Shown: positions 593-21,407 of the stretch, piece after piece
Layout of the letters: each line of letters starts with the position of its first letter
Position numbering within the stretch: position 1 is the first letter of the stretch
Source of the DNA: a virus
Reading direction: 5' to 3' (one strand)
Virus record (IMG/VR): IMGVR_UViG_3300011113_000723
Location: 1 to 21,407 of that record
DNA: 21,407 nucleotides
Position numbers and translations under genes: made by a program
The notes under the pieces: model-generated
Database searches by the model: none
What the model was told of the DNA's origin: nothing
The model's input: only the letters and a program-made list of their open reading frames with translations

Positions 593-1714
593 TTATGTAC
601 CTATTACACTTCCTTTAAAGTATAAATCAATATTATTATTTAATTCGAAATTTTGAGAAGGGTATGATGTGTAAACTCTAAACGTTGTATGTCCAATAGT
701 TACTCCAGAATAAAAAACTGTATTTTGATATATTGTCGAATTCATTTTTACCGATGTCATAATATTTGGATTACCCATACCTAAATTAATCTCAAGCTGA
801 TACTGATAATTAGTAAACCATGTCGGCACTATCCATGTATACCAAGCCTTATCTTCTATAGTATTTTGAGTAACTTTAGCGGTTAAAAATTCATAATACC
901 TAATCAAATTACCATATTGGTCTAGTCCATATGAAATTCCGTTTATTGGGGTTTGGTTAACTGTTAGCCCCGTTGTAGAATTTAGATTAAATGTTATAGA
1001 TGTCTTTATTGGTCTTGGAAATTCTCCCGAACTCCATCCACTAAAATTTATATAGGATACCATATCACTTATAAATGTTCCCGATACTGAACTTGGTTGC
1101 GTCCCATTTGTAAACCCTAAGAATGTCGAACCCTGATTATACATGTACTGTCCAATAGATGAAGCTCCGCTATAAGGTTCAATAAATAAATAAGCAAAGG
1201 CTTGTTCGGGAGTTGAAGATGGAGTAACTGAAATTGTTGGTGTTGGTGTTGAAGTATTAGTAGAGGTTATACTTGGCGTAATTGAAATAGTTGGTGTTAT
1301 TGTTGGGGTGACTGATAATGTCGGTGTTACTGAAGGAGTAATTGAAATAGTTGGGGTTATTGTTGGGGTTATAGATGGTGTAGGGGTATTTGTTGGGGTT
1401 GGTGTTTGAGTAACAGGTGTTGGGGTAACCGTTGGTGTTGGGGTTTGTGTAATAGGTGTCGATGTTGGTGTTTCACTTGGTTCAGGTGACACACACATAT
1501 AATTCATTGTAAACTCGCATTGTGTTGAGTCAACAATTTTTATTAAAATTTCTGGAGCGTTGTCAAAATAAGAAGGAACCGAAAAGGTATAATTTGGGGG
1601 TACTGTTGTTAAAATTACAGTAACAAATTGACAATAATACTGATTAATATCACATACGTATATCTGATAGGGTGGAGTACCATTAATATTTGTAAGTGTA
1701 ATTTGTTGTGACAT
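593..1714 (-). CDS. Putative tail fibre/adhesin with Pro/Thr-rich linker
   Basis: 373 residues in three parts. Residues 1-75 form a small domain with NGTPPY near residue 11 and a closing VDSTQC near residues 61-66, the same landmarks as the SprB-type repeats of the preceding gene, so it looks like a single orphan repeat. Residues about 76-170 are a low-complexity linker of TPT, TPS and ITP units, likely extended and flexible. Residues about 171-373 are a beta-rich domain of unknown family (starting [12 protein letters not shown]) that could be the binding head. No signal peptide or membrane segment is visible. The start ATG shares one base with the previous stop (TAATG), so translation is probably coupled to the SprB-repeat protein. 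Inferred role: a receptor-binding or fibre protein with its N-terminal domain on the virion, a spacer, and a C-terminal head. The architecture is seen directly; the function is inferred. Confidence 0.75.
1205..1489 (-). repeat. Low-complexity Pro/Thr linker with 60-base internal repeat
   Basis: This stretch encodes about 95 residues of Thr, Pro, Ser and Ile units ([16 protein letters not shown]). At DNA level a 32-base unit at 1278-1309 recurs at 1338-1369 with one mismatch, a period of 60 bases or 20 residues. Such stretches can gain or lose units by slippage or recombination, which would change spacer length between the two end domains. Confidence 0.85.
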
Positions 1715-4587
1715 TATAATTGATATTTTCCTTTTAATGAATTATAAACAGTATTTACCTCATTCAGGGATAATGCTCTATTATAAATATACAAAAGGAA
1801 AAGTGACCCATTAAATGCTCCGAAACCATTGAGTTGTTGTCCATAACGCCCAATTACTGAACCTGTTTGATAAGTATCACTCACAGTTGTAGTGTTAAGT
1901 TGACCATTAATATTTGTAATCAATTGGTTTGAACTTCTTGAGAATACTCCCAAAACAATATTATTAACCACTTGTACTGAAACAGAGTTACCCGAAGACG
2001 GGCTTCCGTAGTTGATATTATAAACTCCGTCAAAAGATGTACCGCTCGCACCTAAACTATTTTCATAAATCCCCCAACCTGTTGTGATATTATCATTTGA
2101 ACCTAATAGTAATTGTGAAATTCCTCCTCCTGTATTACTGTAGTATTCTTTTCTAAAAGCCATGATGACTGTATAGTTTTGAGACGCTCCAAATGTTTCT
2201 AAATTTAGTGTTGCAGAAGTTGGTAATTGTAAATACCCGTCTGTTGACGTGCTGTCATTTAGTGTTAATCCTCCTCCATAGTCGTATGTATAGACATAAC
2301 TTCCTCCATTTAATGTACAGTTGTTTCCATTACCACTTAAATCAAACCATGTTGAGCCATTGCCAGGGTAGGACTCTATGTTATCACCTTCTAATCTTAA
2401 AACCAAACAATTACAAATAACACCGTCGGTTGATAAACAATCGATATCATATTGGATTTGTATGTCAACAGATAGGTCTTCATCCCTATAAACCTCAACG
2501 TTATTTACTGTTTCAGAAGTAATATCGATTGTATTAGTTGTTTCATCTATAACACAATCAGTTATATACGGTAATGAAAGAATTGTATTTGTTAAAAAAT
2601 CAAAATATTGTTCCGTAGTTGGTACATCACTTAGTGATGTTGAATAATGAAATGGATATAGGTATTCAGTACCTGCCAAAGTTATTTTAACAAATATGAA
2701 AGCATTTCTAAAAATACAAGAATCGGAATTAGCAACTAAAGATGTATAACCACTTAAAAGAATACTACCTAAACTAAAATATTCTGAACTCACAAATGTT
2801 GTTCCACTATCCGTTACAGATGAACTACCTGTCAATGTAATCAAAGGATTACACGTAACATTTGTAGACGCTAAAAACACACACCCACTATTTCCTGATA
2901 CAGTTGCAGTGTATGTTCCAGCAGTAAGACCTGTTATTACTAAACCTGTCTGACCATTAGCATTTGCCGACCAAAAGTAACTATATGGTGCATCCGTACC
3001 ATTAATTAATAAACTTACAGTACCACCACTTCCATTTAGACAGCTTGTTGGGAATAAAGTTATATTGGGAGCATTTGTTGATTGTATTGTAACATCAAAA
3101 CTCTGAGTACAATTTTGATTTGTCTTTGTAATTGATACACTATAATTACCTGGTTTTAACCTATTAAAACTGTAACTTGTACTTGTAGTCAAAGGTGAAC
3201 TTTGTCCGTTTGATAGAAAATATTGGTATGTGTCACCTGTAGTTGTTGATGATAGAATGTCAATAGCAATAATTCCATTATTGTATCCACAGGTCGTTGC
3301 AGTATAGGTTATTGATGGATTAAATGAAGGTTCATTAGTTATCACAACTTCCTGAGTAAATCCGCAGTAATTTGAACCATCAGAAACTGATAGTGTCCAT
3401 GTATCTGAACTTAAATTTCTAAAAGTATTGGATGTGATGTTTGATAATATATCAAAAACAGTATTACCATCTGATGACTCACAAATGTATCTATAAGGTT
3501 TTCTTCCACCTTGTACTAATGTTGTTATTGTTCCATCATTATGGGAACAAAGTGAATTTGTTGAGGTAAATTTAGTTACGGTGAATGCATTTGGAACCGA
3601 TAGAGTAAATCCAATTGATGATGTACATAAACTCACGTCTGTGACCCCAACGGTATAATTACCTGCCGGTAAGTTTTCAAATAACACATTACTTGAATAT
3701 GATATTATTTGTTCACCTGTACTCAATGTGTACATATAAGGTGGAGTTCCTCCTGAAAAATAACACAAAGCACTACCATCACTTTGACCACAAGTAGGTT
3801 GTGTCAAAACACTTGTAATACTTGTTATTTGAGTCCCTTGTCCTACAACTGCGGTTTTTGTTTTTGAACATCCTTGTGAATCGGAAACAAATACAGTATA
3901 ACTACCCTGTGATAGTCCTGTAATTGTTGATGCCGAAGTTATTCCCGTCAAACCGTTTCCATTCCAACTATAGATGTACGGTGGAGTACCTGTTAGTCCT
4001 GTTATAACAACTCTGCCAAGTTGAGCGGGGGTACACGTTGGGTTATTAACAATGTAAAAACCGTAATCAAAATCCTGAGTGTTGTTAAGAATTACGGTTT
4101 GTGTTTTGGAAGCACATGAACCTAGTGGAGTTACTTCACAATAATAAACACCTGATGGGAAATTAACAAACGTAAATGGGTTTTCAGAAAAAGTATATCC
4201 ACTATAAAATTCACCATTCCTATAAAAATTATAGGTGTAACTATCAGATATTTCAGTGCTTTGGACGGATATTACTCCATTATTACCACCACAAAACGGA
4301 TTCACTATGGACAAAATAGATGACGTACTAGATGAAAATATATTAAATGAAATCTGTTGTGATTGTGGTGTTGCTGATGAATCAACAACGTTAATACTGT
4401 ATGTACCAGCACTAAGACCTCCGTATGAATACGGACTTGTTTGACCTGTCTGAGTTAATGAGCCAAATGATACCGGCTCAAACCAAGTCATTGTGTATGG
4501 TGGACTCCCGCCTAAAACTAAATTAAGTTCACCACTGTTTGTGTTTGAACAGTCTCCCGTTAATGATATTGTATATAATATTGCCAT
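1714..4587 (-). CDS. Tail adhesin with seven SprB-type repeats and LamG-like C-terminus
   Basis: 957 residues. Residues about 2-582 are seven tandem units of roughly 76-87 residues. Each has a Cys near its start, a G(G/T)xPPY-like centre (for example GGSPPY, GTPPY, GGTPPY), then G-L-x-x-G-x-Y and a V-x-D-x-x-x-C-type ending. This is the pattern of the SprB repeat family, known from surface adhesins of gliding Bacteroidota. Residues about 583-727 form a separate domain of unknown family. Residues about 728-957 look like a laminin-G/concanavalin-type jelly roll: an early [11 protein letters not shown] motif and a terminal [13 protein letters not shown] motif are typical of phage and giant-virus LamG domains. 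No signal peptide is visible, as expected for a virion protein. It starts 2 bases after the 970-residue protein gene. Inferred role: a long fibre or adhesin carrying a carbohydrate-binding tip. The repeat and LamG calls are from motif recognition; the receptor is unknown. Confidence 0.85.
2842..4584 (-). repeat. Seven tandem SprB-like repeats (protein-level)
   Basis: The units span residues about 2-85, 88-170, 171-251, 252-333, 334-420, 421-505 and 506-582 of the adhesin. They share their Cys positions and the PPY and G-x-Y landmarks but are strongly diverged in sequence. They are therefore an old domain array rather than a recent DNA tandem duplication. Units 2 and 6 lack the PPY centre. Confidence 0.8.
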
Positions 4588-9506: not shown

Positions 9507-10268
9507 TTAAATTGCTTTATTTTTATATTCGTACCAATTTAATGACTGTATAATTTGTCCCGAACTATTCACAAAATGATATAACCTATTTAGATAATCT
9601 AACTTCAATTCATAATAAAATAAATTGTTTGGTAAATTATTAGGGTTGGCATAATCTGTTTGTGGTTGTGTTGTGAAAACTGAGAATTGACCATCTAACC
9701 CGCTGAAAAATTTTGCTTTCATATAAAAAGTATCCAACTGTGTAACTTGGAAGTTTTGAAAAAAATAAATGTAGTAGCTTTCTTTTTCGCCTACGTGGTC
9801 TAATATGAAATAAGGTTTTTTTATAATATATTCAACACCATTATATGTTTTAGTCTCAGTCTGTTTAGTTTGTCTTGGGGCTAAAATTATAGTGAAAAAT
9901 ATTCTTTGGTTTGTAGGGTCTGATGAATCATAAAAATCCATTTTAAAAAAGGATTTTCGTATTGGTGCAGTGTTATAAAAAATTTGATAAGCATTAAATC
10001 TGTTAGATACCACATAAGAATTTTCGTACTCTGTACCGTTTCTAAAATTAAAACTATATGTAAGTGAAGTTTGTTGTAAACTATTTGGTCTACATGAATA
10101 TCTTGAAAGTTCATAGTCTGGTGGTAATCCAACAGTGTTGTCAATGACCGTTTCTTGGTACCCATCGATTGTGTCTCCTCTTCCAAATAAATCAAGATTC
10201 ATGGACATTGGTATTTGTAACTGTTTTTCAGTTTCAGATAATAATATTTTATATTTATTCACAAGCAT
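9507..10268 (-). CDS. Hypothetical virion protein (253 aa)
   Basis: I do not recognise a family. 253 residues rich in Tyr, Phe, Asn and Gln, suggesting a beta-structured virion protein, with no signal peptide or membrane span. The start chosen overlaps the preceding gene by 14 bases (ATG within the last codons of the 586-residue frame). An internal Met at residue 21 (MSMNLDLFGRG) is an alternative start that would remove the overlap. The overlap start is favoured because other junctions in this operon also overlap. The next gene begins 2 bases after the stop. Position between the wedge genes and the tail-tip genes suggests a peripheral baseplate role, as for gp8-gp11 in T4, but no sequence similarity to those is seen. 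Confidence 0.75.
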   Translation of the reverse strand: MLVNKYKILLSETEKQLQIPMSMNLDLFGRGDTIDGYQETVIDNTVGLPPDYELSRYSCRPNSLQQTSLTYSFNFRNGTEYENSYVVSNRFNAYQIFYNTAPIRKSFFKMDFYDSSDPTNQRIFFTIILAPRQTKQTETKTYNGVEYIIKKPYFILDHVGEKESYYIYFFQNFQVTQLDTFYMKAKFFSGLDGQFSVFTTQPQTDYANPNNLPNNLFYYELKLDYLNRLYHFVNSSGQIIQSLNWYEYKNKAI

Positions 10269-12015
10269 CTTCTATTGGGTCTTGTATTGAGCCTGATAAT
10301 GGTCCACTATTTGTACCTTCAGGGATTATTCTAAAAATAAAGTTTTCGTATGGGTAATGTTTACCATTCATAAATGGGTAGTCGACTCCAATTCCATCAG
10401 AGTCAATAAAACCAAATTCATATAAGTCTCTCCAAATAAATGAATTGTTTGTTTCTGAGTAATATGCATAATCAGGAACATTTGCAATTTCACCCAAATT
10501 ACCATCTTCTATATAGTCCGAAAAAACTCTCAAAGTAAATTTATTGTGAGGTTTATAGTAATATCCTTTATTTATACCTATACTAAAATTTTCTTGATTA
10601 AATTCAAACTTATGGTAATACTCTGAAATTACTTTTTCTGTTTGTTCAAAATCATTCCATTCACAGAAATCCCCATAAATTATATCCCCTTTATTTAATG
10701 GTAAGTTATGTCTAAAATTTGAACTTCCTCTATTATAGTATGAAGTTGGTATGGTCGTTAAAGATTGAGGATTTGTCCACCATGATGATGAAGTCTCGGT
10801 AATGTTCATTTCCCATCCTTGTCTAAGTGCCGGTGAAGTTAAACTACCTCCATTAGGTACTGGATTAAACCAACCAAAATATCCTCTATTTTGTACAGAA
10901 AAAAATATTTCAGTGACCGGTCTTTTTTGATTATCTTTTAAATTTAAAAGGGTTATTGGTTTACTAGTCGAAACATTGTAAGACCTTGACCCCTCTTTGG
11001 TTGCAATTCTTGCCGTAAAATTAGGTGTTAAAGACACACCAAAATATTTTTTTACGTCTCTAAATGAATTAAGTTCAAATCCAGAATTTGTAATATTTAT
11101 TTCATTATAAGTTGATAATACTTTATGTAATCTTATATAATATTTTGATTTTGACTCATCTGGTAAGTCAGGATAAATTACTCTTTTCAATGTTGATACT
11201 TTACCTTCCCAAAAATTTTCTTGTCCATTAGTAATATAGTTTATATCCAAAATGTTAATTACATATTCTTCTGAACCAAAAGTACCATCACCCAATAAAT
11301 CAACTTGAAATATATTTGTTCCATTGTAAGTAAAATTAAGTTCGACATATTCTAAAACATTTAACCCGTGTTTTACATTTGATTTTAATTGCCAATAATT
11401 GGAACCTTCAATTTGTACATAATACATAGTATAGGGTATTCCATCACCAGACTGAAAAGATAAAGTTTGTTGGTTATCATTTGCATATAGCATACTAACA
11501 TCGTTTTTACCTGAAAAAACATATGTGGTATATATAAACCAATTATAGTACTGTGATTGTAAATTTTGAAAATTAACATGCGGGTTATCCCCTGTTGTAT
11601 ATCCAGTAATAGAATTGTCAGTCCTTATAAATGAAAATTCTTCATATGTTGGGAAACCTGCCCAGGGTATGTTTAATAGGTCTCCATCAGTAGTATAAGA
11701 CGCCGCTTTATAAAATTCAGGATTTACATAAAACAAATTATTATTAAACGGAGCGTAAGGGTTACCTTGTGGCTGGGATAGCCCTGAATAAGAATTTTCA
11801 AAAATAAATGAGAATTTTGCAGTAGGAAGATAAAATGGACTCCTTTGTCTTTCTTTATAATAAAGTTCGGCCAAATCAATTATAATAGTTCGATTAAACT
11901 CATCTATTTCTTTTTGAGTATTAATCAAAGGTACTGAAATATTTATACCAACATCGTCCGCACCTTTGTACCTTAAATCACCTTTTATAAATTGTATTTT
12001 ACCAATATCACTCAT
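10255..12015 (-). CDS. Hypothetical virion protein (586 aa)
   Basis: I do not recognise a family. The 586-residue product has a short N-terminal helical stretch (about residues 35-57: EIDEFNRTIIIDLAELYYKERQ with surroundings), then a long aromatic-rich, probably beta-structured body. Around residues 390-415 there is a tryptophan-rich patch (GWEMN, SSSWWTNPQ). The C-terminus is acidic (QDPIEDACE). No signal peptide or membrane segment is visible. The ATG overlaps the stop of the 1918-residue gene by 8 bases (ATGAGTGA), implying coupled translation. It lies where T4 carries gene 8 after genes 6 and 7, but it is much longer than T4 gp8 (334 residues) and I see no convincing similarity. Likely a wedge or peripheral baseplate component by position. 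Confidence 0.75.
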   Translation of the reverse strand: MSDIGKIQFIKGDLRYKGADDVGINISVPLINTQKEIDEFNRTIIIDLAELYYKERQRSPFYLPTAKFSFIFENSYSGLSQPQGNPYAPFNNNLFYVNPEFYKAASYTTDGDLLNIPWAGFPTYEEFSFIRTDNSITGYTTGDNPHVNFQNLQSQYYNWFIYTTYVFSGKNDVSMLYANDNQQTLSFQSGDGIPYTMYYVQIEGSNYWQLKSNVKHGLNVLEYVELNFTYNGTNIFQVDLLGDGTFGSEEYVINILDINYITNGQENFWEGKVSTLKRVIYPDLPDESKSKYYIRLHKVLSTYNEINITNSGFELNSFRDVKKYFGVSLTPNFTARIATKEGSRSYNVSTSKPITLLNLKDNQKRPVTEIFFSVQNRGYFGWFNPVPNGGSLTSPALRQGWEMNITETSSSWWTNPQSLTTIPTSYYNRGSSNFRHNLPLNKGDIIYGDFCEWNDFEQTEKVISEYYHKFEFNQENFSIGINKGYYYKPHNKFTLRVFSDYIEDGNLGEIANVPDYAYYSETNNSFIWRDLYEFGFIDSDGIGVDYPFMNGKHYPYENFIFRIIPEGTNSGPLSGSIQDPIEDACE

Positions 12016-15000
12016 ATATTAAATTTGTGTCAACATACTTTTGTCTAAATTTATCCATTGCCGATGAACCCGCAATAAGTCCAAAATAGAAATAATACGG
12101 AGTACCCTGAGTGAATCTTTGGTCATTGTTTTGATTTGGTTCACTAACCGCAGTTGGGTTGCCTTCAGCGTCATAATTAATTAGGTAACCTTTAACATAA
12201 AGTTGACCTAAACTTGTGTTTCCTATAAAATAATCTGAAATTAAATTCAATCTATCTAAAGATTGGTATCTTGAAGTGAAAAACCCTAATTGGGTTTGCT
12301 CAGTGTCTTGATAAAAATCAGTCCAAAAATTATTGTTTTGATTTCCAAAAATTACAGAAGTATTTTGATTCCCATCGGGAATTGTACTTGAAACTTTACT
12401 TGTCCACTGATAAAATGGAACTATCTGTGAATTGTCAGTCAATTGAGTAATATCTGTTGGGGCAATTGGAAATGAAGCATTTGTATTATAAACAATTTGT
12501 CTTGGAGAAATTAAGTCTCTAAGGTTATTGTTTGACTCAAAATATAATCCAAAATTAGGAAACCCTGTCCCCCCTAAATTATCATTTCCCAAATAAACTG
12601 AAGGTACTGTTGAGTAGGCGTCGCTTGTGTATGGTTTAATTCCAAATTCAGAATTTATAGATATCATTTGGGAGTAATCACCATCCACAAGGTCAGGTGT
12701 AATATTAAAGAAAGTATTTGGGTTATAGTCCCATCTTTTATTATTAAAGAATGCTTGGACAGATGGGTCTGAACTTCCTTCATCGGGACTTTCAGTTACA
12801 GGTATTAAAAGACTGTTGAATTTTTGATTTACAAATCTTGATAAGATAAAAATATTTAAAATATCTGAAATGTCGTTAAATGTTGTGTTTGGTAACTTGT
12901 CTATAATATACCCATCAAAATCATCATTATAGGATATTTCTTGTAGATACCCATTTTTTGGTCCTAAATCCATAATTGTGGTAGGATACATAAGTTGTCG
13001 AATATTCCCCTTTTGGTTCCCAACATTTGAGTTTTTGGGTTGTCCAATAAAATAACCATTTGTTAAATTAGTATACTCATCGACCGCAAAAGGACTTGAC
13101 CTATAATAGAAAGTATTTTGAGTATCATGGAAATAAATAAGACTTTTACAATAATTTCTTACAGGTTTATTTTCTTGATTAAAATTTGTAATATTTTCAA
13201 ATGGAAATGCGTATAACGTACCATTAATCCAATTATTACTGAAACTATGTGAAAACACATTAAAACAAGCCGCAGTGTTAACCTTAACTCTTTGTATCCA
13301 TTCAACAACAAATTGATAGTCTCTATATATTGATAATAAAGGTCTGGAAACTAAATTATAACAACCGGCACCTTTGATAAAAATAGTTTTTGTTTTATTC
13401 GAAATTACCATTTTATCACACTCAGTACCACTCTTTAAAAATGGAACTCCATTATCGGCACCATAACATCTAAGAGGTACCGCTTTAGCACAATCACTTA
13501 ATGATTCAATGACATCCGGATTTATTGTTGGGGGTAACACATCAAGGTCAACCTCAACTGATTGTTGTTCTAATGGTGTAAAATCTTGAACGACCTCTAA
13601 CGTACCTCCTACTTCTTGGAATTTATATAATGCAAAAGATGGATTCATGTGCATTTGTGGATAAATTTTAAATGGTCCGTGCGTTTCTTCAGGATTTGCA
13701 ATATAACCGCTATCAGAAATTGGTAACCTATCACTTCTCATGACAATTCTAGGTTTGGAGGGAGCAAATGCCCCATTAACAAAATCAACTTCATTGGACA
13801 ATGTCATAATCATTGCATTGTCAACGTAACTATTCATGTATGATGGCGAATAAGTTCTAGCAACCAAACCATATGGTCCAGCAGGGTTTGGAGACCATGA
13901 TTTTTGCCGTTGGTTATCTTCCCCACATTCTATTAATTCAGTATTATTAAACTCAGGGGTATAAGCACCATACAAAGTCCAATTAATATAAGAAAAAGAC
14001 CCCCCTTCAACATATTGATAAGGTAGATAACCCATATATTTAATCCTACTTGGATTATCATTAACATTCTGATTAGTTATGCGGTATCTTCTATAATATT
14101 GTCCTGAAGCTCGATATAATCCCCTACATTTTGAACACCATGGAGCAATGTCATCTAAAGTATGGAAAAAAGTTAAGAAATTATTGTTGACAGATATGCT
14201 ATTTCGTATTCCCTTAAAATCATCGGGTTGTAACCCGAAAGTAGGCCCATTTGTATTATTAATTTCAAAAGACCCTCCAGTCCATTTTCCAGCAGCTGAA
14301 TAATATTTCCACGAGTAAGAATTAAAATCTTGATATTGAGTAGTGTCTGGTTTGAACATATCCGTACCATAGAAAAGATAATAACCCTCACTTCTGTTAT
14401 CTCTTCTATAGTTATATAAATTTCTATTTTCCCAAATACTATCATTTACATATAACCTTAAATTATTTTGTTGGTCATCTCTATTTCTTATAGGAACATT
14501 TACTCTAAGAAAAATTTCTTTTACAAGCCCTTCTTGATTGTAATCAGCATATCCATAAATTCTACTTAAATCAATTCTAGTTTTAATCTTTGGCGAGTGT
14601 GGGTCGACTCCTCTTTGTAAAATAACAACTCTTTGCGTTGAACCACTAATAAAAGAATCTAACCCATATACTGTACTTATACCCGCAAATGTTTCCTCAT
14701 CATAAGTTGTTGCATTTGTAAGAATTGAACCTTGCCAATTAATTGGGGCATCTGTTATCATTCCAGGACCACAAGCACAAAGGTCATTACCCTGGTAATT
14801 ACTAACGTCTTGAGAACATCCATCACCAAAAGGATATATACCGTACTTTTTAATAAAATAAATTGGGTCTAAGTTTACTACATTAAATGAATTTATTTGT
14901 GGTGATGATGGATTTTTAGTTCTAAATTCTTGTACTGACACATTTTCTAAAACTTGAAAATATTCTAAATCAGTTGGGTATCTATACGTACTATTTTCGA

Positions 15001-17764
15001 AATCTGTAATTTCAGAGGAGCCTGGTGATATTGTATACTCAATATTAAAATTTTGGGTATAACTAAATCGACTAGCGTATGTTACGGTAAATGTTCCCGA
15101 TGAAAATGTTATCCCAGAAACTACGTCAATATTAGGGTCTTCACTGTTTTTGGGATTTGTAAAAGTTAATAACGTTCCTTCAGGATATACAGCTTCCGCA
15201 CTTTCTTCCATCAATAAAATCATCACGTTATCGTAATGTTGTGCTTGATTTTCTCCAGGAGCATAAGTCACTTTTATTTGGTTCGGAGCTTTTCCTTGTG
15301 TTCCTCCGGGTACATACCCATTAACAAAAGGATATCCATTAGTTGCTAAAGTACTAATATCATAATACCTATCTTTTAAACTAAATTGATTTAATTTTTC
15401 ACCCCACGACACTTGTGGACTAAAATAAAGTTGCCAAGAATCAAGACCTTGTGGAGGCGGATTTTGTACATCTAATGAACCCACTTGAAGATATGGGGTT
15501 CCAAAACTATTTGCTCCTTGTTGTCCAGTCACAATAGTTGCAATGTCTGTACCTAAATTATATTGTGTCTGTACGTTAACGTTTGATAATCTTGAGGTAT
15601 TGGAACCGATAACATTAACAATACTTAGCTGTGACGCAACTGAATTATCATTTACGTCGGTTTCAATGAACTTACAATTACATCTTGTACATCCATCTTC
15701 ATTATATAATATTAAGGGTAAACCTAAATTTCTAAAAGGATTTTGTTTAAATATTACTAAATCTATGTTCGGTTCGTCAGGACAATTAATACTACCACCA
15801 ACCAAATTAGCAATCGCGTTAATTGCTTTACATATTTTAACAACAACCCATATAATACCTTGGACTATAATAATTATCAGGGCGATAATTGGCCAAATTA
15901 AAGCTAAAATATGAGTTGCAATTAAAACAAAAATTGATAAATATTTTAAATAAGTTAGTAAAAAATTTACAAACACAAACAAAAAGTCCGTTCGATAATA
16001 CACATCATTTGTTGGAAATTTATTGTAGTTACCTTCACATGTATCGTCTTGGATGTTTTTAATTTGGACTGTGTTTCTTATGAATTTTTTGGTAGCGTAT
16101 CTATCAATGAATTGTGATACAGTATATACTTTATTATAATTAAATTCATAAAAAGTATCCTCACAATTTATTGCTTCGGTAGGATTTGCGTAATCTTCCC
16201 AATTTAAACTAAAAGCATAAGATTGTTCAACTTGATATCTTTTTACAGGAATAATTTCTATATTTATTTTAGCAATTAATCCGTCTTCTTTTTTGACTAT
16301 GTTTACTGTTAATACATCAGTTTCTGAAAATTGAAACATTGGTATTACGTCCCGATATTCAGGTTTTTCAACACCATTAAGAAAAACTTCAAAACTTTCA
16401 ACATTTTCAAATGTTGTTATTCTTAGAGCATCTGTTGGGAATGAGCTAAATAAAATTCCTCTTGTTGTTTCGTCACTGTCGTAATTTATTGAGCCAGAAT
16501 TTATGGTATATGTTATTGGGTCAACTTCCATATTTTCAGTGTCCCATCCATACTCTTTAATATTTGGTAAAAGGTAATAAGCTCTTTTTGTCTCTCCGTT
16601 TACTCTACTTGGCTGGTCCCACTTTACTTTAAATCTATATTTTGCAGTTGTTGGTACCCCAATTGTAGGGTCATTTGAAATAACTAAGTCACCATTTTCA
16701 TCGTTATACACGTAATTAAGGTTCATTGGTAGTTCAACCACCCAATTACCATTATCATCAATCACTTTACCGTTACCTTCTATTTTATATTCTTCTAATA
16801 CCGGTAGTCCATTCTCATCAACAAATATTGTTTGTCTAATCGCGTCAATTTGACCGGGTCCGGTAGTAAGTTCACAATTATATCCGGCCTTTGTTTTTGA
16901 TTTACAATTACCCCAGTCGTCCGCATTTCTTTTTTTTCTAATTTTATTTTTATCACTATCAGAAACTAATGACCCCATGAATATTGCGGTAGGTTCCAAT
17001 TTTAAATTAGCTTCTTTAGTTAAATCAAAATCAATTCTACCTATGTTAAAATCACAAACTTCTTTTTGCCCAAAAAATGGCGCAACGTTTATTGTTTTAT
17101 TTATTGTAATAATTTGAGGTAACTCATTCAAGTTTGTTGAAAATCTAAATCTACTTCCGTCGACTTGGTCTTGGGTTGCAACTCCAAGTCTAATTAAATC
17201 CTGTGGAGTTAATGAAAATTGTCCAATGTCAGATACATCAACCTGCATTACAATAGTTTGCTGTCCAAGTGGTGCTCCAAATATCATAAAGTCACCCGAA
17301 TCATTTGTCTTTACAGTGTACTTATAATATTTGTCATAAATTTCTACAACACTTTTATCAATTAAAGCGTCGATTCTATCAGGAAAAGTTCCGACTGGCG
17401 TATGGTTAGAGTATGAAGGACTATATGGTAGAATATTGAAACGATACCCATCTTCATTAATTGTGTCTATCCTCTGATATGGGTAAAGTGTACTGATGAC
17501 AGGATTATTTTCGTCTTCAGGTTGTAGTGGGATAAATATTGTAACTTTAGCATTAGGAATACCAAACCCACTGTTAGCAAAAACTCTTCCACAAACTACT
17601 CCAAATTTTGAACAATCCCTTGTATAAATGTCCGATTGGAACATTTGAAAAGATAGGATTTCCAACATTTCATAATTTTGGTCTAACTTTACTTGTAGAT
17701 TATTTTCGGAACCTAAAACGGTTCTGATTCTATAAGAATTTTGACTATCACTGACTATTGGCAT
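12008..17764 (-). CDS. Giant baseplate-region protein (gp7 position) with hydrophobic segment
   Basis: 1918 residues, the largest product here. Residues about 54-175 resemble a carboxypeptidase-regulatory/CnaB-type beta sandwich (GVVCGRVFANSGFGIPNAKV... later TNDSGDFMIFGAPLG). Residues 594-644 are almost entirely hydrophobic and could form two membrane-spanning or buried helices. Cysteines cluster at 692/695/697 (CxxCxC), 983/996/998 and 1210/1213 (CxxC), with further single cysteines at about 1425-1468, possibly metal sites. The C-terminus (PYYFYFGLIAGSS...) is aromatic. It follows the gp6-like gene, where T4 has gp7 (1032 residues), so a wedge role is inferred from order only; no direct gp7 similarity is claimed. 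A 58-base gap precedes it, and its stop overlaps the next start by 8 bases. The frame is certain; the molecular role is not. Confidence 0.7.
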   Translation of the reverse strand: MPIVSDSQNSYRIRTVLGSENNLQVKLDQNYEMLEILSFQMFQSDIYTRDCSKFGVVCGRVFANSGFGIPNAKVTIFIPLQPEDENNPVISTLYPYQRIDTINEDGYRFNILPYSPSYSNHTPVGTFPDRIDALIDKSVVEIYDKYYKYTVKTNDSGDFMIFGAPLGQQTIVMQVDVSDIGQFSLTPQDLIRLGVATQDQVDGSRFRFSTNLNELPQIITINKTINVAPFFGQKEVCDFNIGRIDFDLTKEANLKLEPTAIFMGSLVSDSDKNKIRKKRNADDWGNCKSKTKAGYNCELTTGPGQIDAIRQTIFVDENGLPVLEEYKIEGNGKVIDDNGNWVVELPMNLNYVYNDENGDLVISNDPTIGVPTTAKYRFKVKWDQPSRVNGETKRAYYLLPNIKEYGWDTENMEVDPITYTINSGSINYDSDETTRGILFSSFPTDALRITTFENVESFEVFLNGVEKPEYRDVIPMFQFSETDVLTVNIVKKEDGLIAKINIEIIPVKRYQVEQSYAFSLNWEDYANPTEAINCEDTFYEFNYNKVYTVSQFIDRYATKKFIRNTVQIKNIQDDTCEGNYNKFPTNDVYYRTDFLFVFVNFLLTYLKYLSIFVLIATHILALIWPIIALIIIIVQGIIWVVVKICKAINAIANLVGGSINCPDEPNIDLVIFKQNPFRNLGLPLILYNEDGCTRCNCKFIETDVNDNSVASQLSIVNVIGSNTSRLSNVNVQTQYNLGTDIATIVTGQQGANSFGTPYLQVGSLDVQNPPPQGLDSWQLYFSPQVSWGEKLNQFSLKDRYYDISTLATNGYPFVNGYVPGGTQGKAPNQIKVTYAPGENQAQHYDNVMILLMEESAEAVYPEGTLLTFTNPKNSEDPNIDVVSGITFSSGTFTVTYASRFSYTQNFNIEYTISPGSSEITDFENSTYRYPTDLEYFQVLENVSVQEFRTKNPSSPQINSFNVVNLDPIYFIKKYGIYPFGDGCSQDVSNYQGNDLCACGPGMITDAPINWQGSILTNATTYDEETFAGISTVYGLDSFISGSTQRVVILQRGVDPHSPKIKTRIDLSRIYGYADYNQEGLVKEIFLRVNVPIRNRDDQQNNLRLYVNDSIWENRNLYNYRRDNRSEGYYLFYGTDMFKPDTTQYQDFNSYSWKYYSAAGKWTGGSFEINNTNGPTFGLQPDDFKGIRNSISVNNNFLTFFHTLDDIAPWCSKCRGLYRASGQYYRRYRITNQNVNDNPSRIKYMGYLPYQYVEGGSFSYINWTLYGAYTPEFNNTELIECGEDNQRQKSWSPNPAGPYGLVARTYSPSYMNSYVDNAMIMTLSNEVDFVNGAFAPSKPRIVMRSDRLPISDSGYIANPEETHGPFKIYPQMHMNPSFALYKFQEVGGTLEVVQDFTPLEQQSVEVDLDVLPPTINPDVIESLSDCAKAVPLRCYGADNGVPFLKSGTECDKMVISNKTKTIFIKGAGCYNLVSRPLLSIYRDYQFVVEWIQRVKVNTAACFNVFSHSFSNNWINGTLYAFPFENITNFNQENKPVRNYCKSLIYFHDTQNTFYYRSSPFAVDEYTNLTNGYFIGQPKNSNVGNQKGNIRQLMYPTTIMDLGPKNGYLQEISYNDDFDGYIIDKLPNTTFNDISDILNIFILSRFVNQKFNSLLIPVTESPDEGSSDPSVQAFFNNKRWDYNPNTFFNITPDLVDGDYSQMISINSEFGIKPYTSDAYSTVPSVYLGNDNLGGTGFPNFGLYFESNNNLRDLISPRQIVYNTNASFPIAPTDITQLTDNSQIVPFYQWTSKVSSTIPDGNQNTSVIFGNQNNNFWTDFYQDTEQTQLGFFTSRYQSLDRLNLISDYFIGNTSLGQLYVKGYLINYDAEGNPTAVSEPNQNNDQRFTQGTPYYFYFGLIAGSSAMDKFRQKYVDTNLIYE
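15833..15985 (-). other. Segment encoding a 51-residue hydrophobic hairpin
   Basis: This encodes residues 594-644 of the giant protein. The stretch is dominated by Leu, Ile, Val, Phe and Ala, with one Trp-Pro (624-625) and a Gln-Gly (635-636) as possible turns and a single Lys at 607. A basic VVKICKA motif follows. The length would allow two membrane helices. Confidence 0.8.
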
Positions 17765-17822: not shown

Positions 17823-19670
17823 TTAGGAAATATTTGTTGTGGTTAAGATAGCGACCTGCACAGTAATATCCGTTTGTGGTTTTCTTACCTGATAAATTTG
17901 AGTGGGTAACGCATAAATTGTCTCATCAATTAAACCAATTTCTTTAGTACTTTCATTGATGTACGGTTGAGATGTCTCATCTGAAGAATACTCACCTCCC
18001 ACTTTTCCAAAAAATTTAATTTCTGTTAGACTTAATACCCCTTCTATGTTTTGAATTTCACTTTTTATTTTTGAAACATTAACATTTTGACCAAGTAATT
18101 GTGACTTCGGGTCTAATGAAGCCGCGATGGTTTGTGAAACTCTTGTTATTACAGCCCCTTGTGTCTGTGAACCCGCGAATTGTGAATCTAATACAACTCT
18201 TACATTTACTGCCAAATCAATTACTTGAGCAGTTTGAACAAATATGTAATCATTAATCATCCTATAATTAGACAGGTAAGTTGCAATATTTGATTTAAGT
18301 GTGTTTGACACCACGTTTGAAAGATTTCCGACTGAGTCGTATGATAGGATGTTAATTTTAATCTTATTATCTTCTTCAACAATTGCAACTTTAGCCGGCG
18401 CCCCAAAAGAAGCTGGCATTTTTTTGATTATTGTCTCGTAATCATTTATTGTAACCGCTCTGTTTTGTGCAGAAAAGTTATAACCAACTAAATTTCTTAT
18501 TTCTTCCAATGACATTGCATTTGCCCCACCAATCGCTGCCGTAACATTATTACAAATTAATGACTGTCTGACAATTGAATTTAATGTTTCAGATGGTCCG
18601 TTTATTGCAAAATTTATAGTCCCTATTTGATTAATTACATTTACACCTAAATTTGTTTGTAACCCTCCTCCAACTCTATATTGAACAAATAATGTTGTGT
18701 TTGGTGTCAAAACTGAACCTAATGAAAAGTTGTTTTGAAATTTTCCTAAATCTAAATTTATTCCGTCTCTTGCATATTCTCTAAGTAATTCATCGCTAGA
18801 TGTGTTTCCTCCACCAAAAGTTATTTTGAAAAAACCTTCAGGAGTAAACTCGGTAATAAACCTGTTGTTTGTTTGGATATACTTCCCAACTTTAATTCCA
18901 GGATTGTCAGATGGTTTAGATGGGTCTTCAACAAATATTCTATCCTCAACTAATGCTTGTACTTCATACCATCTATTGTTCGGTGACAAAAATTCAGTAG
19001 ATGTTGGTACGTTTGAGTAACTAGTTCCTTCTTTTAAAAGTACACTTGTTACACCTAAAACGTTTTTGTCAGGTAAAAACAATTCGTAAAAAGGTCTAGA
19101 TTCCAAATTACTTATTGTTTTTTTGTAAACTTTTGTAACTCCGTTAACCACAGGTTCCCTTTTGACAATGGTATAATTAATAAGAATATCGTTAGCGTCA
19201 AAATTTGGTATCACAAGTCTGTTTGGGAATCCTTCCGCATCAAAAGGAAATGCAAAATCAACATCATTAACCAATTCAAAAATTTGACCTCCTCCCAAAA
19301 CTTGACTCCCTCTTGATAATTTACCACAGTAATCTAAATCCTCTTTATCTCCTGAAGCGGGTACTGTTATTGATAAATCAACAACCGCAACTGAAGGTTT
19401 TACACCGGGTATTTTTAAACCATATGTTTTTGCAATATTAAAAATTGATGACCTTTGTTGAGCATATTGTAATACAGTTTCCTGTAAACTTCTGTCTATA
19501 TGAAAATGTAAATTGTCGGTAACCGCCGCATTCATATCCATTAAAACACTAAAGACCGCTGCGTCATTAAAGTTTGATATCAAGTCAGGATAATACTGTT
19601 TAACGTAATTGATTAATTCAGTCCTTATACCCTGAAAGTCTCTTGTAGTATATGAAATTTGTTTTGCCAT
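17823..19670 (-). CDS. gp6: Baseplate wedge protein, gp6/baseplate J family
   Basis: 615 residues, close to T4 gp6 (660). In the T4 baseplate, gp6 dimers form the inner wedge ring with gp25 and gp53 that holds the hub and triggers sheath contraction. Family features seen: the N-terminal YTTRDFxxIRxELxxY start (residues 7-22), then the helical block with FNDAAVFSVLMDMNAAV and the arginine-rich QQRSSIFNIAKTYG (about 34-85). Next come the central beta region with FGGG (about 290) and the baseplate-J core near residues 375-417: GGANAMSLEEIRN, then QNRAVTINDYETII, equivalent to the T4 gp6 VTATDYDTF stretch. The start lies 1 base after the gp25-like stop. A 58-base gap follows before the giant gene. 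Family assignment is strong; finer detail is by analogy with T4. Confidence 0.9.
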   Translation of the reverse strand: MAKQISYTTRDFQGIRTELINYVKQYYPDLISNFNDAAVFSVLMDMNAAVTDNLHFHIDRSLQETVLQYAQQRSSIFNIAKTYGLKIPGVKPSVAVVDLSITVPASGDKEDLDYCGKLSRGSQVLGGGQIFELVNDVDFAFPFDAEGFPNRLVIPNFDANDILINYTIVKREPVVNGVTKVYKKTISNLESRPFYELFLPDKNVLGVTSVLLKEGTSYSNVPTSTEFLSPNNRWYEVQALVEDRIFVEDPSKPSDNPGIKVGKYIQTNNRFITEFTPEGFFKITFGGGNTSSDELLREYARDGINLDLGKFQNNFSLGSVLTPNTTLFVQYRVGGGLQTNLGVNVINQIGTINFAINGPSETLNSIVRQSLICNNVTAAIGGANAMSLEEIRNLVGYNFSAQNRAVTINDYETIIKKMPASFGAPAKVAIVEEDNKIKINILSYDSVGNLSNVVSNTLKSNIATYLSNYRMINDYIFVQTAQVIDLAVNVRVVLDSQFAGSQTQGAVITRVSQTIAASLDPKSQLLGQNVNVSKIKSEIQNIEGVLSLTEIKFFGKVGGEYSSDETSQPYINESTKEIGLIDETIYALPTQIYQVRKPQTDITVQVAILTTTNIS

Positions 19671-19671
19671 G

Positions 19672-20133
19672 TTATATATTAATAATTACAAAATCTTTAG
19701 AATTAAATACACTGTTTGTTAAAGTATAATCAATTCTGACTTTTGCTGTGTATTCATCTTCAGCTCTACCTGGTAAGTTATATGTCCTTGTTTCAACCCC
19801 ACCTATATTATTCACAACTAATGTACCTTCTTCGTCAGTAGAAGCATTAATTCTAATGTCATTTATTGTTAAATTTGGTATGTATTTTTCGATTGAGTCT
19901 CTAATTTCTCCCTCTATTTCGTTAAATGTCGGTCCGTCAAGTGGTTCAAATATGTATTCATAAAGTCTAGTACCAAAATCAGGTAAAAAATATCTAGCTC
20001 CTTTTCTAGTTAACAACAAATGAATTAAATCAGTCCTAATTTCTTCATTAACAGTATCTGATAAATCCAAATATTTTCCATCAAAAGAATCACGGAAGGG
20101 AAAATTAATACCATATGTTTTACCATTTGCCAT
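19672..20133 (-). CDS. gp25: Baseplate wedge protein, gp25/GpW family
   Basis: 153 residues, slightly longer than T4 gp25 (132). gp25-family proteins (T4 gp25, P2 GpW, type VI secretion TssE) sit at the inner wedge next to gp6 and nucleate the tail sheath. The recognisable core is LLTRKGARYFLPDFGTRLYEYIFEP (about residues 40-64), matching T4 TTRKGSRPFDPEFG and the following helix. The family's EPR motif falls where this protein has IPN (residues 85-87, in EKYIPNL), so Glu and Arg are both missing. The C-terminal part is beta-rich. It is the first structural gene after the nrdA terminator and abuts the gp6-like gene (1-base gap). No Shine-Dalgarno sequence is present; the leader ends TATTTATATCAT before ATG. 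Confidence 0.88.
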   Translation of the reverse strand: MANGKTYGINFPFRDSFDGKYLDLSDTVNEEIRTDLIHLLLTRKGARYFLPDFGTRLYEYIFEPLDGPTFNEIEGEIRDSIEKYIPNLTINDIRINASTDEEGTLVVNNIGGVETRTYNLPGRAEDEYTAKVRIDYTLTNSVFNSKDFVIINI

Positions 20134-20211: not shown

Positions 20212-21407
20212 TTATGACGAACATCCAAAACAATCAAATTGACTATTTTCAGGTTTTGGAGGTAAATTCATACTTGAGTAATCTACCTTTGGTGGTTCAG
20301 GTGTTGGGTTTGGTTTTTTGATTTTTGAAATGTCAACCGCCAAGTGTTTTGCACCTGTTGAAATAGCCTTTGTTCTAACATAGTAACAAAGTGTTTTTAA
20401 ACCTTTTTCCCACCCATAAAAGTGTGAGGATGAAATCTTAGATAGAGTTGGGTTACCCATATAAATGTTCATTGATTGTGATTGGTCAATGAATGGTGCT
20501 CTGTCAGCCGCCATTTCAATCAAAGATTTTTGTGAAATTTCCCAAATGGTTTTATACTTCTCAATAAGCCTTTCAATTCTTTTAACTTTGAAGTTGTATC
20601 TTTTATCTTCAGTATCTAAATAGTTTAGGAAGTTAATTCCTTGAATTGAACCTTCATTCATAATTATTTCATTCTTTAGGTCTTCGCACCAAATTCCAAT
20701 CTTTTCAAAATCGTTAATCAAATACTTGTTAACAATCATAATTTCACCGCCAACCACACGACGGTTAAAGATTGCCGAATGAGCGGGTTCAGTCATTTCA
20801 TATGAACCTGTAATCTTGGCTGAAGATGCTACAGGCATTTGTGCCGTAAATAGAGAGTTACAAACACCATATTTACTAACATTCTGTTTCAAAATCCCCC
20901 AAGGCCATCTTCCCGACAACTCATCTTCGTTCAATCCCCACATATCAAATTGGAAATTACCTTGTGACATAGGAGAACCTTCAAAGTGTGAGTATGGTTT
21001 GTATTCACCATCAATACACAATCTATTACTTTCAGTGATAGCCGCGAAATAGATAGTTTCAAAAATTTCTTTATTTAATTTACGAGCCTCGTCAGATGTG
21101 AAGATATAATCCATCAAATAGAATACGTCTGCAAGACCTTGAGTACCAATCGCAATGGCTCTTTGAGCAAGCCCTCCAATTTTACCCTTTTCAGTTGAGT
21201 AGTTATTAATGTCAATGACTTTGTTCAAAGCTCTTACAACTTTACGAGTTTCCCCATACAATAATTGGTGATTAAATTCCCCGTCTTTAACAAAGTTCTT
21301 CAATACCATAGATGACAATGTGCAGATTGCGGTAGTGTCCTCATCAGTATATTGATAAATCTCATTACAAAGATTTGATTGTTTGATTACACCAATGTTT
21401 TGATGGT
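20212..21407 (-). CDS. nrdA: Class I ribonucleotide reductase large subunit (5' end outside window)
   Basis: The alpha subunit reduces ribonucleotides to deoxyribonucleotides with a radical from the NrdB partner, supplying phage DNA synthesis. The frame is open to the window edge, so about 397 C-terminal residues are visible and the true start lies outside. Catalytic landmarks: NLCNE at 21361-21375 (E. coli N437, C439, E441), AICTL just after it (C462), the radical-transfer YY in KTLCYYVRT, and a C-terminal CFGCSS redox pair on a Pro-rich flexible tail. Core blocks such as MAADRAPFIDQSQSMNI and HFYGWEKGLKT resemble the eukaryotic RRM1-like type more than E. coli NrdA. About 16 extra residues appear before YKTIWEIS relative to human RRM1 as I recall it. 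A terminator follows directly, so it is not cotranscribed with the baseplate genes. Assignment is very secure. Confidence 0.96.
   Translation of the reverse strand, partial: HQNIGVIKQSNLCNEIYQYTDEDTTAICTLSSMVLKNFVKDGEFNHQLLYGETRKVVRALNKVIDINNYSTEKGKIGGLAQRAIAIGTQGLADVFYLMDYIFTSDEARKLNKEIFETIYFAAITESNRLCIDGEYKPYSHFEGSPMSQGNFQFDMWGLNEDELSGRWPWGILKQNVSKYGVCNSLFTAQMPVASSAKITGSYEMTEPAHSAIFNRRVVGGEIMIVNKYLINDFEKIGIWCEDLKNEIIMNEGSIQGINFLNYLDTEDKRYNFKVKRIERLIEKYKTIWEISQKSLIEMAADRAPFIDQSQSMNIYMGNPTLSKISSSHFYGWEKGLKTLCYYVRTKAISTGAKHLAVDISKIKKPNPTPEPPKVDYSSMNLPPKPENSQFDCFGCSS

Follow-up and report, generated by a model that had tools for sequence, protein, structure and literature searches.

A conserved membrane-type hydrophobic module in an undescribed giant baseplate-region protein of likely Bacteroidota jumbo myophages

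The window, a viral record of 21,407 bases that constitutes the whole stretch of DNA analysed here, carries on its minus strand a baseplate operon in which a gp25-like gene and a gp6-like gene are followed by a giant gene encoding 1918 residues:

19672-20133, minus strand: gp25-like baseplate wedge subunit (PHROG 261, E 5.6e-17)
17823-19670, minus strand: gp6-like baseplate wedge or Baseplate_J protein (PHROG 219, E 3.6e-22; Pfam Baseplate_J, E 0.0019), with relatives in phages
12008-17764, minus strand: giant 1918-residue baseplate-region protein of an undescribed family, directly 3' of gp6
10255-12015, minus strand: conserved 586-residue neighbour with no family match

The first-pass annotation had assigned the giant protein to the baseplate region, a label that is correct because gp6 and gp25 are its neighbours. 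In longer loci, a protein of about 570-620 residues comes after the giant gene. Upstream of gp25, the tail operon is adjoined by a gene for the large subunit of ribonucleotide reductase (20212-21405, minus strand; PHROG 84, E 2.9e-50); the ORF at the equivalent place in the record of a relative, L141 (146718-149150), has a most hydrophobic peptide identical to that of the ribonucleotide reductase ORF of the window. A 957-residue protein encoded at 1714-4587 (minus strand) includes a Hoc-like stretch (PHROG 2973, E 7.9e-7) that probably corresponds to immunoglobulin-like domains in an adhesin of the tail or surface.

The giant protein displays the following regions:

16115-17617, minus strand: residues 50-550, beta-sandwich-rich N-terminal region (AlphaFold2 pLDDT mostly 75-94; Pfam; family alignment)
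15833-15985, minus strand: residues 594-644, hydrophobic block that probably forms a membrane hairpin of two helices, in which H618 and W624-P625 are conserved
15674-15691, minus strand: residues 692-697, CTRCNC (CxxCxC), conserved in 75 homologues
13745-15664, minus strand: residues 701-1340, fast-evolving middle region, the length of which varies among homologues
12011-13756, minus strand: residues 1337-1918, conserved C-terminal region with the motifs NNWxNGTLYxFxF and terminal FYFGLxxGxxAxDxF

Residues 50-550 are the best-conserved part of the protein in the family alignment and are CarboxypepD_reg-like in 24 of 35 members according to Pfam. The giant protein of the window gave no significant match in PHROGs, Pfam or PDB sequences (for the N-terminal part, no PDB sequence at E<=1), and a PDB fold search with the N-terminal part returned weak matches of low TM-score only, namely immunoglobulin-like or CnaB-like domains in adhesins and pilins. 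The N-terminal part has one strong viral match, the metagenomic myovirus protein A0A8S5LA66 (42% identity over 409 columns), and a tblastn search of 50,697 phage records returned nothing for the window protein or for its homologues L046, L050 and L039. The giant protein is a member of an undescribed and widespread family, for which no relative in an isolated phage was found. One homologue of 2846 residues, L012 (L012:2236-10773), has approximately 900 extra residues in the fast-evolving region that separates the cysteine cluster from the conserved C-terminal end. The FYFGLxxGxxAxDxF motif (window 12011-12106) is terminal in most homologues and internal (around residues 929-953) in L036, L037 and L039, which carry an extra C-terminal part.

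Residues 594-644 (nt 15985-15833) read FLFVFVNFLLTYLKYLSIFVLIATHILALIWPIIALIIIIVQGIIWVVVKI and attain their highest 19-residue Kyte-Doolittle mean, 2.85, at residue 626, a value reached in one of 500 whole-protein shuffles; no stretch in the remainder of the protein exceeds about 1.0. The hydrophobic character first attributed to this segment is thereby borne out. The statement that it is not a signal peptide is correct. The sequence CTRCNC falls exactly at residues 692-697 (nt 15691-15674), where the first-pass annotation had placed a CxxCxC motif, so that its numbering was right. The basic patch that it described after the hairpin did not stand up to inspection: residues 645-691 hold three basic and five acidic residues, and Lys646 of the window protein is a glutamate in relatives of 74% identity. 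Two viral relatives at this level of identity retain the hairpin and CTRC[ND]C, and a codon comparison with one of them, L001, gave a dN of 0.131 and a dS of 1.35 for the segment, compared with a dN of 0.134 for the N-terminal domain and 0.331 for residues 701-1340. The hairpin segment is under purifying selection and is as constrained as the N-terminal domain. An antisense ORF opposite the hairpin (15543-15914, plus strand) was set aside as mechanical.

An AlphaFold2 model of residues 1-760 (monomer, 35 sequences, mean pLDDT 71.6) revealed confident beta domains at approximately 50-550, low-confidence linkers around 553-593 and a disordered-looking chain from residue 681, with residues 594-654 forming one continuous 61-residue helix of moderate confidence (block means 56-82) and no hairpin drawn; the model of the C-terminal part (pLDDT 40) was too poor for a fold search. 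An ordinary globular core around the segment was looked for in this model, which describes the monomer, and a lone helix was found instead; since it is flanked by low-confidence linkers, the hydrophobic segment is predicted to lie outside any globular domain in the monomer. The two helices originally envisaged are plausible in that His618 and the Trp-Pro break at 624-625 are conserved, but the model instead draws a single helix. Such a long helix is what would be expected in a bundle, and it is compatible with a buried oligomerization core, in which several copies, with or without partners, would pack their helices into a stable bundle within the baseplate that never meets lipid. Indeed, wedge subunits such as T4 gp6 and gp7 normally assemble via helices, and a gp7-like subunit would be expected to share a helical bundle in the wedge with two gp6 copies.

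A scan by gp6 alignment yielded 80 loci and a scan by alignment of the N-terminal region at least 600 stretches, of which 599 were confirmed; nine loci came from MAG contigs, several of them in Bacteroidota bins. The hydrophobic block was judged in 93 distinct homologues extending past the N-terminal domain and is present at the equivalent position in 91 of these, with a peak of at least 2.0 in 90 and of at least 2.5 in 70, compared with two and none, respectively, among 310 control ORFs of at least 300 residues in the same loci. When hydrophobic segments of at least 19 residues above a Kyte-Doolittle threshold of 1.6 were taken as transmembrane, the window protein qualified at its peak value and 91 of the 93 homologues at 1.9 or more. 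It is hydrophobicity, not missing charge, that constitutes the evidence, because the length of the charge-free run is not unusual by itself: the longest such run was discarded as a measure, as it did not separate the family from the controls (control 95th percentile 56). Chance or artefact as the source of the block is ruled out by the shuffles, the control ORFs, the conservation and the dN/dS comparison. The block is thus in the transmembrane range and far outside the values of neighbouring structural proteins; this excess over the neighbouring soluble structural ORFs speaks against a buried oligomerization core, as does the number of segments, which ranges from one to four depending on the homologue.

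The limits of the block could be set in 64 cases, of which 57 contain H-x-[LIVA] and 59 an aromatic-proline break; a stretch that was simply sticky would not call for such specific residues. This bears on the proposal that the segment is recognized by a tail assembly chaperone and has no membrane or pore role. Such a function has been considered likelier than membrane insertion for the hydrophobic regions of the TP901-1 tape measure, for which either assembly or chaperone binding was favoured (PMC5099701). Nevertheless, the conserved histidine and Trp-Pro, the fixed position and the cysteine cluster that follows go beyond what a generically sticky stretch would show, and the precedent is a tape measure protein whereas the giant protein is beta-rich, which makes chaperone binding very improbable as the explanation.

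Replacement of the block by polar sequence was looked for in the homologues: 91 of 93 keep the block, while L090, L097 and the divergent L044, which are short (732-768 residues), lose the whole module, being without the hairpin, CxxCxC and the small gene described below; L044 and L090 retain the N- and C-terminal parts. The hairpin is not required by all members of the family, since these three do without it. Overall, the proposal of a membrane-type segment survives, given that the block is kept in homologues and lies outside a globular core in the monomer model.

In 75 homologues the block is followed by the CxxCxC cluster, probably a knot held by a metal or by disulfides, and all 75 lack a small membrane gene upstream. 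Ten homologues that lack CxxCxC instead carry, between gp6 and the giant gene, a small gene of 78-156 codons that encodes M[GA]CxC[K/A] or MGCxxCK together with a hydrophobic hairpin; the incomplete loci L043 and L093 fit this pattern and L094 does so in a weaker form. Small MGCxCK, MACxCK or MGCxxCK genes of about 80-160 codons were observed directly 5' of the giant gene in L036-L040, L043, L046, L050, L091-L093, L095 and L096. Six homologues have the block but neither CxxCxC nor a detected small gene: L125, L137, L151 and L160 end before or near the cysteine position, L094 is the weak case just mentioned, and in L035 the block is weaker, CEEC is present and the small gene is missing. Four of the small proteins were checked and gave no PHROG match below E 0.01; judged from their sequences, they look like an undescribed family of phage membrane proteins in the baseplate operon. 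In the tree, the homologues with CxxCxC in cis form one clade (100/98) and those with the small gene another (90/92), the hairpin-less forms being unsurely placed on long branches. Because each class forms one clade, the complementarity between CxxCxC and the small gene may go back to one switch in evolution and carries less weight than the counts imply.

The divergent clade bears on the buried-core explanation in two ways. Its blocks have small or polar residues at regular intervals of about seven positions, for example INFIVLLLNGILGIICSIIYGIG in L046, which speaks for such a core; on the other hand, the product of its separate small gene has a similar hairpin and no large soluble domain. Taken together with the hydrophobicity and the variable segment number, a core that never meets lipid appears possible but rather unlikely.

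One relative is L141, the giant protein of which shares 53% identity with that of the window in the N-terminal 700 residues and is encoded in a record of 293,850 bp. Over 200 kb of this record, the giant protein is the only one of 59 ORFs of at least 300 residues to reach a hydrophobicity of 2.5. The sheath was identified, and a helical, low-proline protein of 664 residues downstream of it, which by its composition is likely to be the tape measure, has no such segment (peak 1.08). The L141 record also encodes the ribosomal protein bS21 (66251-66406, minus strand). Bacteroidetes myophages that encode bS21 have been described from lakes, with genomes of 293-331 kbp (PMC9723584); L141 is like them in bS21 and in the length of its record, whereas the window itself is a 21-kb fragment. 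A word search of that report found no mention of a transmembrane protein. No bS21 match was found in five other long viral relatives, all of which are fragments, and no Terminase_6N match in the records of nine relatives, these being uninformative fragments. The window is likely to belong to the bS21-encoding Bacteroidetes jumbo myophages, and the hosts are likely to be Bacteroidota bacteria.

More distant gp6 relatives show 26-30% identity in gp6, with 26-28% for the isolated phages immuto (Flavobacterium) and Mel-JY01 (Microcystis), and their slot after gp6 is occupied by proteins of approximately 370 residues, often approximately 115 residues, and 1100-2000 residues. The giant proteins of these phages (immuto, Mel-JY01, the huge phage LR756508 and L055-L089) were rejected as homologues, as they display no hairpin and no profile similarity. 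Since the distant relatives carry a different set of genes after gp6, the hairpin protein characterizes one large phage clade.

The conserved module of the giant protein suggests entry of the tail base into a cell membrane at some point. The explanation that we favour, with a probability of roughly 0.4, is insertion during infection. The giant protein would be a structural part of the baseplate in the tail of a jumbo myophage that infects Bacteroidota, and its residues 594-644 would form a transmembrane-type helical hairpin between soluble beta-rich domains, followed by the cysteine cluster. In the assembled tail, the hairpin would be shielded between subunits or by a partner; upon attachment and contraction of the tail it would be released and would insert into a membrane of the host envelope, anchoring the baseplate or lining the entry path. 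This explanation leads because the gene lies in a structural operon, the segment is apparently the only such element of the tail in a relative, and the sister clade has a membrane-like small protein, the sequence of which looks like that of a true membrane protein. What is observed directly is the segment with its conservation and genomic context, as well as its loss as a module or its pairing with the small gene; from these we infer membrane entry, the membrane concerned, the timing and the presence of the giant protein in the virion. Counting against insertion are the continuous helix of the AlphaFold2 model, the three hairpin-less homologues and the TP901-1 precedent (PMC5099701).

If exposed, a hairpin made in the cytoplasm should be delivered to the inner membrane while it is being synthesized, an argument for either efficient shielding or a role in assembly. 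In the latter case, the hairpin would tether the nascent baseplate to the cytoplasmic membrane of the host, on its inner face, while the tail is assembled; with an even number of helices, both large soluble parts would lie on one side, and a membrane platform would be a fitting role for the small MGCxCK hairpin protein. However, tails must be released at lysis, so that the hairpin would have to be extracted or would carry lipid, and to our knowledge anchoring of the baseplate in the membrane by a hairpin is not known for classical myophages such as T4. A direct precedent is Cis13, a contractile-system component with a transmembrane helix that anchors a cyanobacterial contractile injection system in thylakoids (PMC8894136). 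Such an assembly anchor seems unlikely. The sequence is compatible with insertion during infection, with anchoring during assembly and with a core that is buried or bound by a chaperone.

Once the tube of a contractile-tailed phage has pierced the cell wall, the way in which the membrane is crossed is poorly understood. A conserved membrane-type module in a baseplate-region protein of a widespread phage group would be a concrete candidate for this step and an element of the tail base not seen in the classical T4-type tail; T4-type baseplates are not known to have a membrane-inserting part. The natural experiments provided by homologues with the hairpin in cis, with the hairpin and a small partner gene, or with no hairpin make this candidate testable. 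A broader and more doubtful proposal is that, in a large group of jumbo phages of Bacteroidota, the baseplate has taken over from the tape measure or hub the part of genome delivery that crosses the membrane. Giant wedge proteins arranged in a ring would then release transmembrane hairpins on contraction, giving rise to a membrane-embedded collar or channel, supplied either in cis (hairpin and CxxCxC) or with a small partner protein (MGCxCK and hairpin).

Among known systems, T4 gp7 and its T6SS counterpart TssG share the gene slot of the giant protein, as in the window and its relatives gp25 and gp6 are followed by a large wedge-region protein. No similarity to gp7 or TssG was found in PHROG, Pfam or PDB sequences at useful E-values, nor among the best 50 PDB fold matches; T4 gp7 is soluble, whereas the giant protein is about twice as long and has a hydrophobic hairpin. 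Membrane insertion during entry is a role often proposed for the tape measure proteins of other phages, which, as in TP901-1 (PMC5099701), are likewise tail proteins with predicted membrane-spanning segments between soluble parts. The giant protein was nevertheless rejected as a tail tape measure, since its model is beta-rich, its gene comes after gp6 and L141 has the separate helical candidate. By description, the Cis13/Cis12 system (PMC8894136) also includes a component of a contractile tail whose predicted transmembrane helix connects baseplate and membrane; Cis13 is trimeric and tail-fibre-like with the helix at its C-terminal end, whereas the giant phage protein has its hairpin in mid-protein and its gene next to gp6.
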